Shown: piece by piece, positions 41,272 through 60,093 of the stretch
How positions within the stretch are numbered: position 1 is the stretch's first letter
How the letters are laid out: the number at the start of each line of letters is the position of its first letter
NCBI RefSeq assembly: GCF_020169415.1
Contig: NZ_JAIULG010000023.1
Span: 1 to 64,000, forward strand
Reading direction: 5' to 3'
From: Tsukamurella sp. M9C
GTDB taxonomy: Bacteria > Actinomycetota > Actinomycetes > Mycobacteriales > Mycobacteriaceae
Length of the DNA stretch: 64,000 nucleotides
Program-made: the position numbers and the translations under genes
The notes under the pieces: generated by a model
The model's input: only the letters and a program-made list of their open reading frames with translations
The model's database searches: none
Told to the model about the DNA's origin: nothing

Positions 41272-41496
41272 TCAGTTCCGGTAGCGGAAGACGATCCGGC
41301 CTCGACTGAGGTCGTAGGGACTGATCTCCACGAGCACGCGGTCGAGCGGGACGATCTTGATGTAGTTCTTCCGGATCTTCCCGCTGATGTGCGCCAGGAC
41401 GACGTGCCCGTTGTCGAGCTCCACCCGGAACGTGGCCGCGCGGAGCCCTTCGATGACGGTGCCGGCGGCCTCGATGCCGCGCGAGGTCTTGGTCAT
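41272..41496 (-). CDS. infA: Translation initiation factor IF-1 paralogue
   Basis: A 74-residue S1/OB-fold protein clearly of the IF-1 family: [20 protein letters not shown], then [24 protein letters not shown]-1 binds the ribosomal A site during initiation. The normal actinobacterial infA, with a MAKKDGAIEVEG start, lies in the rpmJ-rpsM cluster; this copy has a divergent start ([12 protein letters not shown]) and a different neighbourhood, so it is a second copy. Its ATG overlaps the stop codon of the upstream 152-residue protein by 4 nt (ATGA), showing translational coupling. A leader ORF precedes the pair. It may be a stress- or antibiotic-responsive variant. Confidence 0.9.
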
Positions 41497-41951
41497 GACC
41501 GCACCAGCTCGACGGTGGTCTCGACCGCGATGCCGCCGGCCTGCTCGATCACGGCGACGGCGGCACCGTCGGCGGGATCGGCCTGCGCCGCCAGGAAGGG
41601 CGCGACCCCGGGCGCGGATCGGACCCGCCACGCCCCGGGCGGGGTGACGGCGGGCGGCGGGTCGAGCGGGATCCGGTACAGCGCCTCCCGCCGGTGCGGG
41701 GCGAAGCCGTGCCGGCGCCAGGCGGCGAGCAACTCATGGTCGCCGTCCGCCACGAGGGTGAACAGCGGTGGCGGCAGCTCGGCGAGGAGCGCTGCGGCGA
41801 GCAGGTCGAAAGCCGCTGCGGTCCAGGCGTCGACGCTGATGAATCCGGCCCGTCGTGACGGTCCGGCGCGGCCGATGACGCGGTCCTCGGCGTCGATCGC
41901 GAGCCAGTCGCCGTCCTCGGCGCGCACGAGAGTGAGAGGGGAGTCGTTCAT
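41493..41951 (-). CDS. Unknown protein coupled to the IF-1 paralogue, possibly GNAT-like
   Basis: A 152-residue protein without a recognised family. The first half ([22 protein letters not shown], then a helix rich in Ala and Leu) and the segment [18 protein letters not shown] resemble the last strands of GNAT acetyltransferases, in which a Tyr near the end follows a GF turn; no clear acetyl-CoA binding loop (R/Q-x-x-G-x-G/A) is seen. The second half ([37 protein letters not shown]) could be the start of a second such module. GGAAGG lies 7 nt before ATG 41951 and falls partly inside a hairpin. Its stop codon overlaps the IF-1 start, so the two proteins are made together. Confidence 0.65.
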
Positions 41952-41962
41952 GGTGATGCCTT

Positions 41963-41991
41963 CCAGGAATGCCTGCGTGCGGCGCTCCTGG
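41963..41991 (-). promoter_or_regulatory. Hairpin overlapping the ribosome-binding site of the IF-1 paralogue operon
   Basis: On the minus strand CCAGGA (41991-41986) can pair with TCCTGG (41968-41963), with an inner GCC/GGC pair. The 3' arm shares two bases with the GGAAGG ribosome-binding site (41964-41959). A competing hairpin, GGTG-TCGC-CACC (about 42001-41990), shares bases with the 5' arm, so the two cannot form together. This arrangement fits translational attenuation controlled by the leader ORF. Confidence 0.45.
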
Positions 41992-42000
41992 TGGCGACAC

Positions 42001-42051
42001 CTAGGTCGACCGTGAGAACGGAGGGAGCACCCACATGCGTGAAACGTTCAC
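42001..42051 (-). CDS. Probable 16-residue leader peptide upstream of the IF-1 paralogue operon
   Basis: A short ORF encodes MNVSRMWVLPPFSRST and ends with TAG at 42003-42001. GAGGAGG (42066-42060) lies 8 nt before the GTG start, a stronger ribosome-binding site than that of the gene it precedes. A possible -10 element TACGCT (42094-42089) stands about 40 nt upstream. The leader is followed by two mutually exclusive hairpins, one covering the next ribosome-binding site, then by the 152-residue protein and the IF-1 paralogue. This is the layout of ribosome-stalling leaders that sense translation inhibitors or aminoacyl-tRNA supply. The peptide has no run of a single amino acid, which argues for the former. 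Existence of the peptide is inferred, not shown. Confidence 0.5.
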   Translation of the reverse strand: MNVSRMWVLPPFSRST

Positions 42052-42174
42052 GGGTCTCACCTCCTCAGGTCCTGTCACGGTTGCGCCCAGCGTATCCCCC
42101 GGCCCGGACCGTCCGCATCCCCTTTTTCGCGGGCCCGCCGCCGGCGGACGTACGGTGGTCGAAGGAGGTGCGCC

Positions 42175-43589: not shown

Positions 43590-43666
43590 TGGTGCGCACA
43601 GAGGGACTCGAACCCCCGACAACCGGTGTGTAAGACCGGGACTCTAACCAACTGAGCTATGTGCGC
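43590..43666 (-). tRNA. tRNA-Val (anticodon UAC)
   Basis: On the minus strand the sequence folds as a cloverleaf starting GCGCACA (43666-43660). The anticodon arm is CCGGT-CTTACAC-ACCGG with anticodon TAC, and the T arm carries GGTTCGAGTCC. The acceptor 3' strand TGTGCGC is followed by A and an encoded CCA (to 43590). The first 10 bases overlap the end of the ahpE-like coding region, whose TAG is at 43659-43657. Confidence 0.96.
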
Positions 43667-60014: not shown

Positions 60015-60020
60015 CACTTG

Positions 60021-60093
60021 CTCCCCCAACTGGACTCGAACCAGTAACCCTTCGATTAACAGTCGAATGCTCTGCCAATTGAGCTATGGGGGA
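60021..60093 (-). tRNA. tRNA-Asn (anticodon GUU)
   Basis: On the minus strand the 73-nt cloverleaf begins TCCCCCA (60093-60087) and ends TGGGGGA plus discriminator G (to 60021). The D arm is GCTCAATTGGCAGAGC, the anticodon arm TTCGA-CTGTTAA-TCGAA with anticodon GTT, and the T arm contains GGTTCGAGTCC. CCA is not encoded, unlike the tRNA-Val gene in this window. A strong terminator follows. Confidence 0.97.

Follow-up and report, generated by a model that had tools for sequence, protein, structure and literature searches.

The window, a 64,000-nt stretch of the genome of Tsukamurella sp. M9C, carries an operon in which a GNAT-type protein and a second copy of translation initiation factor IF-1 follow a leader with a short open reading frame (ORF) and four segments that are predicted to pair in alternative ways. 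This leader belongs to an RNA family that has no entry in Rfam and that also precedes genes of four other families. The operon is probably controlled by a promoter of the WhiB7 type together with an attenuator of translation that resembles ermC and responds to ribosomes held up at the start of the leader ORF. We prefer this account because it is the simplest one that uses all the evidence.

The locus and its gene pair

The leader peptide of the window is VNVSRMWVLPPFSRST, and its GTG start is preceded by the Shine-Dalgarno (SD) sequence GGAGGTGAGACCC, which agrees with the 16-codon ORF with a ribosome-binding site that an earlier note on this DNA had described (Table 1). From the leader stop to the start of the 152-residue ORF (ORF152) the distance is 49 nt. 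ORF152 and the IF-1 gene share 4 nt (ATGA), and this 4-nt overlap is found in all 10 Tsukamurella copies checked. The operon has a glyoxalase-like gene on one side and a divergent FAD oxidoreductase gene on the other, and the matching gene order in T. tyrosinosolvens (NZ_LR134460) is annotated as “hypothetical protein” and “infA”. PADLOC gave no match for the four proteins submitted. Two tRNA genes, tRNA-Val(tac) at 43590-43666 and tRNA-Asn(gtt) at 60020-60093, are also located in the window, both on the minus strand.

Table 1. Features of the IF-1 paralogue operon and its leader, in window coordinates. Pairings and regulatory roles are predictions.
Feature	Position	Strand	Remark
IF-1 paralogue (infA-like)	41272..41496	-	start overlaps ORF152 stop
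ORF152, GNAT-type protein of 152 aa with an internal deletion and the GNAT fold	41493..41951	-	
Putative SD-sequestering hairpin 3:4	41952..42001	-	60-nt fold -29.6 kcal/mol, z -5.07
Segment 4, TCCTGG, continues into gene SD GGAAGG	41959..41968	-	
Segment 3, GGAGCGCC	41981..41988	-	8 pairs with segment 2
Segment 3, part facing the alternative partner, segment 4	41991-41986	-	via CCAGGA
Leader ORF, 16 codons	42001..42051	-	GTG start (42051), TAG stop (42001)
Segment A2, TCACGG	42010..42015	-	partner A1
Segment 2, GGTGCTCC, within leader ORF	42024..42031	-	partner segment 1 or 3
Segment 1 = leader Shine-Dalgarno, GGAGGTGAGACCC	42052..42064	-	
Segment A1, CCGTGA	42075..42080	-	partner A2; compensatory changes
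-10-like TACGCT	42089..42094	-	TAnnnT 14 nt before A1 in 82/101 leaders
A-run (GAAAAAG) of WhiB7/WblC-type promoter	42123..42127	-	first A to -10 = 33 nt

The window's IF-1 matches TIGR00008 over its full length with 104.5 bits (cut-off 61.15) and PF01176 with 84.4 bits (cut-off 30.2), so the extra IF-1 gene overlapped by the 152-residue protein, as first noted from the sequence, is confirmed. Its genome contains two IF-1 matches, the second being canonical IF-1. The paralogue is spread over at least two actinobacterial orders. In the order-wide search with the window's IF-1, at least 16 of 397 genomes match at 102 bits or more; the next among the matches listed have at most 100.1 bits, and those inspected are canonical IF-1, while two genomes (G101 and G163) have two IF-1 matches each among the matches listed. 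Class-wide, the paralogue is present in 10 of 394 genomes besides the window's own; in the order of genome G711 it is present in 11 of 197 (E 1e-32), and a Streptomyces record, from another order, also has the GNAT-infA pair. Within Tsukamurella, 11 of the 16 genomes have the paralogue and five are without it. In a tree of 47 distinct proteins, built on only 74 columns, a branch (100/99) parts 36 paralogues from canonical IF-1. Within Tsukamurella, the median dN/dS of the paralogue is 0.09 and that of ORF152 is 0.27 (10 sequences and 44 pairs in each case); canonical IF-1, compared over its matched part in 16 sequences, has 0.00. Selection therefore acts on both the paralogue and ORF152, and the housekeeping IF-1 evolves more slowly than the paralogue. 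Because IF-1 sits in the A site of the 30S subunit, near several drug sites, an altered IF-1 could restore initiation under drugs. The paralogue presumably replaces or supplements IF-1 on ribosomes that are blocked at initiation.

The full-length partner of the IF-1 paralogue is an acetyltransferase (GNAT). Full-length partners carry the acetyl-CoA loop motif R-x-x-G-x-A (e.g., RRRGIARALL, seen by eye). In Tsukamurella, the stretch with this motif is deleted, and by eye the motif is absent from ORF152. ORF152, called “unknown” in the earlier note, is not a new family; it is an internally deleted GNAT-type copy that has the GNAT fold, its C-terminal alignment being weak. Six relatives of ORF152 were found in the genome contigs searched, all in Tsukamurella. 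A script found an ORF of at least 140 aa ending within 70 nt of the IF-1 start in 38 of the 42 genomes with the paralogue; in three genomes (G690, G814 and G838) the reported ORF begins 160-542 nt past segment 2 and may not be a GNAT, and upstream of IF-1 in G842 and G857 there is no ORF within the 70-nt limit.

The leader in IF-1 operons

The leader was found in 39 of the 42 genomes with an IF-1 paralogue. As for the exceptions, IF-1 stands alone in G724 (L086), with a WhiB7-like promoter seen by eye and without the leader; in G015 (L039) it lacks both leader and partner, its N-terminus is replaced, and a tRNA-like sequence lies nearby; and in T. spumae (G011; L048 and L248) a transposase-like sequence, presumably IS630-like, splits the leader at its CTAG stop, so that the halves lie on two contigs. 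Alignment A3 comprises 38 leaders before IF-1 paralogues, the 39th (L113) being excluded. All 38 have a closed ORF of 16-19 codons, with 17-21 nt from the start to the sequence GG(T/C)GCTC, and the pattern MN(A/V)xSxWVLP is frequent among their peptides. GG(T/C)GCTC lies in the WVLP frame in 33 of the 38 leaders and in other frames, with its nucleotides unchanged, in the remaining five (L051, L053, L055, L082 and L083). As the segment 2 nucleotides are kept despite this frame shift, selection acts on the RNA and not on the peptide. The leader start, its length, the hairpin arms and the promoter all recur before other IF-1 paralogues, and the leader of the window is therefore not a product of chance. 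Conservation of the leader ORF, the hairpins and the gene pair, which had been proposed as a check, thus extends to relatives and beyond.

RNA structure and covariation

In its typical form, segment 1 is GGAGGTGAGACCC, preceded by CCGTGAC; segment 2 is GGTGCTCCC, segment 3 is GGGAGCGCC, and segment 4 is GGCACTCCC, which continues into the SD of the gene. Segment 2 mimics segment 4. Two pairing states are predicted from these sequences: 1:2 plus 3:4, in which the gene SD would be hidden, and 2:3, in which it would be free. The 60-nt hairpin at the gene SD folds better than 200 of 200 shuffles (z -5.07), which upholds the early description of a hairpin touching the next ribosome-binding site; the 135-nt leader fold has a z of -2.91, and 1 of 200 shuffles is equally good. 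In the cells of A3, standard pairs make up 82.9% of 1:2, 94.6% of 2:3 and 85.9% of 3:4, against 33-61% in slid controls.

Covariation gave a divided answer to the check that had been suggested for the hairpins. On the 38 leaders, neither 1:2 nor 2:3 rises above shuffles, and 3:4 stands out on two measures only, the score (reached by 14 of 500 shuffles) and the number of cells paired (22 of 500). On 89 leaders, the core of 1:2 and 3:4 has 7 pairs changed on both sides against 2.8 in shuffles and beats 500 of 500 shuffles on all five measures, in an alignment of related sequences that was fitted to the tested structure; in the same test, a slid control (-3) has 30 cells changed on both sides against 22 for the real structure. 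Round the gene SD, differing sequences (e.g., GGTCGT:ACGACC and GGTGT:ACACC) preserve the lower stem, whose mean run is 6.17 against 5.34 (sd 0.09) when the partners are re-dealt (n = 101). The 2:3 helix does not rise above shuffles in the 38-leader or the wider set; it is too invariant for covariation to show. No terminator-like site was found in the leader, and transcription attenuation was rejected on that ground, except for a possible Rho-dependent termination.

Folding and the position of the ribosome

The switch was tested by folding truncated transcripts that end after segment 3, for 102 leaders (81 at codon 17). With a ribosome at codon 1, helix 2:3 has a mean probability of 0.75; the value falls to 0.61 for codon 2, to 0.03 for codon 3 and to 0.00 for codons 4-8, 11 and 13, and then rises to 0.42 for codon 15 and 0.45 for codon 17. 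A 30S-sized block gives 0.74, and the absence of a ribosome 0.00. Counted by leader, 2:3 exceeds 0.5 in 76 of the 102 at codon 1, in 64 at codon 2 and in 2 at codon 3, in none at codons 4-8, 11 and 13 or without a ribosome, and in 42 of 102 at codon 15 and 35 of 81 at codon 17. The leader of the window has 0.95 at codon 1 and 0.21 at codon 2; the inner codons tested give 0.0, as does the absence of a ribosome, and codon 15 gives 1.0. A gain of more than 0.5 in the pairing of segment 3 is seen in 74 of the 102 real leaders, against 33 of 306 with dinucleotide-shuffled upstream parts.

Full-length folding at equilibrium, with ribosomes as blocks, produced no switch, and 3:4 forms nearly always. 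Of 91 leaders, 88 have it above 0.5 when free and 82 when a ribosome sits at the start, and the accessibility of the SD is 0.57 free, 0.57 with the ribosome at the start and 0.53 at the stop; of the 102 leaders, 7 (accessibility) and 11 (3:4), without a recognised segment or SD, were skipped here. Since 3:4 persists at equilibrium, the switch could only be kinetic. The start-arrest model is weakened by the 2:3 pairing that is also permitted when the ribosome has reached the leader end; termination must then be fast, or the region must refold.

A promoter of the WhiB7/WblC type

Among 101 leaders with enough upstream sequence, 81 have both an A-run and TAnnnT at the expected spacing, and AAA runs cluster 44-47 nt before segment A1. 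In the background, AAA occurs at 30 of 21,332 positions; only 5 TAnnnT sites were available for the joint test, none with AAA. The motif occurs in none of 16 regions (400 nt) upstream of canonical infA. The spacing from the A-run to the -10 is 33 nt in the window and 32 nt in the genome's own whiB7 promoter (L192). It should be mentioned that the last base of GAAAWY is mismatched in the window's promoter and that its -35 is poor. The published WblC site, GAAAWY, sits 3 nt upstream of the -35 (PMC7157823), and an AT-rich sequence 3 bp upstream of the -35 is described for 56 ChIP regions (PMC10727445). The host WhiB7 (L191) ends in RKRPRGRPRKNAA, an AT hook. The whiB7 region of the same genome (L192) has a long leader, an upstream ORF and an A-run promoter. 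We infer from its promoter sequence that the operon is under WhiB7 control, a layer that the earlier note had not contained.

A wider RNA family

A covariance model built on the 38 leaders found 138 matches (E ≤0.01) in 87 of 296 genomes of the class, with up to five per genome. In a phylum sample, 12 of 246 genomes match at 0.001, and all 12 belong to the same class or nearer. A search against Rfam gave two matches up to E 1, both within ORF152 and none in the leader, and eight further-searched loci gave no match up to E 0.1. The downstream genes were examined for 110 of the 138 matches, and 105 of these 110 fall into five families: alpha/beta hydrolases (53), PrmC-like methyltransferases (18), rifampin monooxygenases (15), GNAT proteins (10, one of them the window's) and patatin-like proteins (9). 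At the cut-off of the class search, six genomes (G441, G478, G600, G615, G630 and G654) have the GNAT without the IF-1 paralogue. The leader is thus not specific to IF-1, as it had first been taken to be: this RNA is also found before four further gene families and before GNAT genes without IF-1. As for the names, one rifampin monooxygenase tested matches NF033145 (846.8 bits, cut-off 800), two downstream genes tested match TIGR03704 (451 and 426 bits, cut-off 248.8), and one patatin-like protein tested matches PF01734; the name alpha/beta hydrolase rests on weak similarity, with sub-cut-off matches at best, and on annotations of plasmid records.

The leader is also found on 40 records of a plasmid collection, and in Streptomyces records of that collection it stands before rox, alpha/beta hydrolase and GNAT genes. 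Rifampin monooxygenase-like genes lie behind the leader at L117-L127, L129-L131 and L133, and in NZ_CP109481 and NZ_CP016083. By eye, several rox copies have an N-terminal extension that resembles the start of the leader-controlled hydrolase, as if they had been fused behind a captured 5' end. Patatin-like genes follow the leader at L143, L160, L163, L201, L203, L210, L225, L238 and L240; three of their upstream regions were inspected, and the A-run is missing in L143 and L160. A phage origin of the leader was considered and rejected: the leader of L058 has no match in phage records, and an exact 20-base pattern has none in viral contigs.

The slot of the leader start codon holds GTG in 50, ATG in 29, ATC in 18 and ATT in 9 of the 110 leaders. 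The 27 leaders with ATC or ATT precede PrmC-like genes in 15 cases and hydrolase genes in 7, and in 5 no gene family was assigned. In 4 of the 110 leaders no leader ORF was detected by script; inspection by eye shows GTT in the slot of L207 and GTC in that of L217, each with an in-frame TAG, and no nearby stop in L226 and L229. Among the 18 PrmC-like leaders, 17 keep the SD and carry ATC, ATT, GTT or GTC in the slot (L204, L207-L209, L211, L212, L214, L216-L218, L222, L227, L230-L233 and L235), and L228 has ATG.

Proposed mechanism and rival explanations

The first layer, suggested by the sequence, would be the WhiB7/WblC-type promoter, which would switch the operon on when translation is disturbed. 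In the second, for which comparison and folding argue, the leader would act as a translational attenuator like that of ermC. In RNA free of ribosomes, segment 1, the leader SD, would pair with segment 2 and segment 3 with segment 4, and the gene SD would be hidden. A ribosome or 30S subunit held at the leader start would cover segment 1 and leave uncovered segment 2, which begins about 20 nt downstream; segment 2 could then capture segment 3 while segment 4 is still to be transcribed, and the gene SD would stay free. The GNAT-type protein would thereby be made and, through the overlap, the IF-1 paralogue. The leader may therefore be regarded as a reusable module, placed also before lone GNAT, alpha/beta hydrolase, rifampin monooxygenase, patatin-like and PrmC-like genes.

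What counts for this attenuator is the presence of the leader in nearly all genomes with the paralogue, the closed ORF in every aligned leader, the pairing, the compensatory changes, the frame-independent segment 2, the folding of truncated RNA, the promoter motif and the absence of a terminator-like site. Against it count the equilibrium folding without a switch, the 2:3 pairing allowed at the leader end, the lack of covariation in 2:3 and, on 38 leaders, in 1:2, the excess of the slid control, the ATC/ATT slots, the five Tsukamurella genomes without the paralogue and the loss of the acetyl-CoA motif stretch. That a ribosome is sensed by the leader is our reading of the comparison and the truncated-RNA folding, which also favour the attenuator part of the earlier proposal of ribosome stalling; a peptide-specific stall is unlikely in view of the frame shifts in 5 of 38 leaders. 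Such an arrest inside the leader, specific to the peptide or codons of WVLP as in macrolide-dependent erm leaders, was our first idea, and the frequent MN(A/V)xSxWVLP pattern speaks for it. It was dropped when five leaders proved to keep the nucleotides out of frame, and in folding 2:3 is blocked when the ribosome occupies any of the inner positions tested (codons 3-8, 11 and 13), so that we now consider it quite improbable. A related possibility, unlikely on balance but worth keeping in mind, is that the leader senses initiation itself: a 30S or 70S particle would be parked at the start, the ATC, ATT, GTC and GTT slots would reflect poor initiation, and the IF-1 made would close a feedback loop. 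In leaders with such slots, where the 30S subunit binds, the fidelity factors IF-1 and IF-3 would set the switch, and in IF-1 operons a stress-specific IF-1 would act on the very step being sensed.

It is rather unlikely that the leader is passive, merely lowering translation or allowing reinitiation, with all the regulation at the WhiB7-type promoter. The strong promoter motif, the leaderless paralogue of G724 and the full-length folding without a switch are in its favour, whereas a passive leader needs neither the mimicry of segment 4 by segment 2 nor the compensatory changes and the frame-independent conservation, and in the window the distance from leader stop to gene start also weighs against it. 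The ATC/ATT slots and the four leaders in which the script finds no ORF would suit a leader bound by a protein or a small RNA, with an incidental ORF at least in the ATC/ATT subgroup; as ATG or GTG fills the slot in 79 of the 110 leaders and the ORF is closed in all 38 before IF-1, we give this little credence. Least probable of all is that the likeness of the leaders reflects the transfer of one promoter-leader cassette and not selection on an RNA switch. Although the module stands before unrelated genes and on plasmid-collection records, and several rox copies begin with a hydrolase-like piece, the leaders of different groups differ with compensating changes, and the IF-1 clade has a single origin in the tree.

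If the start-sensing attenuator behind a WhiB7-type promoter is real, an RNA family in about three of ten sampled genomes of the class ties ribosome arrest to resistance and repair genes, and rifampin monooxygenase is among the genes so controlled even though ribosomes are not the target of rifampin. If IF-1 is inducible, cells may exchange an initiation factor under drug stress. The leader RNA alone would also be a handle for finding further actinobacterial antibiotic-response genes.

Comparison with known systems

In translational attenuators of the ermC/cat type, a leader peptide is followed by four pairing segments, and the SD of the gene is hidden in 3:4 and freed by 2:3. The leader described here is alike in its ORF, which has its own SD upstream of the gene, in its four segments and in its mutually exclusive helices, one of which hides the gene SD that the other would free. 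It differs in four respects: conservation is of the RNA instead of the peptide, sensing is predicted to take place at the leader start, a single RNA family serves five gene families, and a promoter of the WhiB7 type lies upstream.

This leader, an IF-1 paralogue in the WhiB7/WblC regulon and the gene pair were not found in the titles and abstract beginnings of the open-access papers searched. According to the available parts of PMC7157823 and PMC10727445, the WhiB7/WblC regulon shares the promoter architecture and includes GNATs, methyltransferases and hydrolases, and infB is among the WhiB7 binding targets in M. abscessus; in those parts, the regulon is presented without an IF-1 paralogue and without a translational attenuator on its genes. 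The attenuator of whiB7/wblC itself (PMC10727445) is likewise actinobacterial and responds to translation stress through an upstream ORF (uORF) and alternative hairpins, but it works by transcription attenuation of the regulator gene. Also similar are are5sc and tiaA, actinobacterial ARE ABCF genes whose uORFs are stalled at the start codon, in Streptomyces, by start-codon-stalling drugs and in a WblC context (PMC12421871). Their uORFs are short (MLV and MVGDDDISG) and are coupled to terminator/anti-terminator folds, whereas the leader described here has 16-19 codons, no terminator-like site and a predicted switch that hides the SD of the gene.
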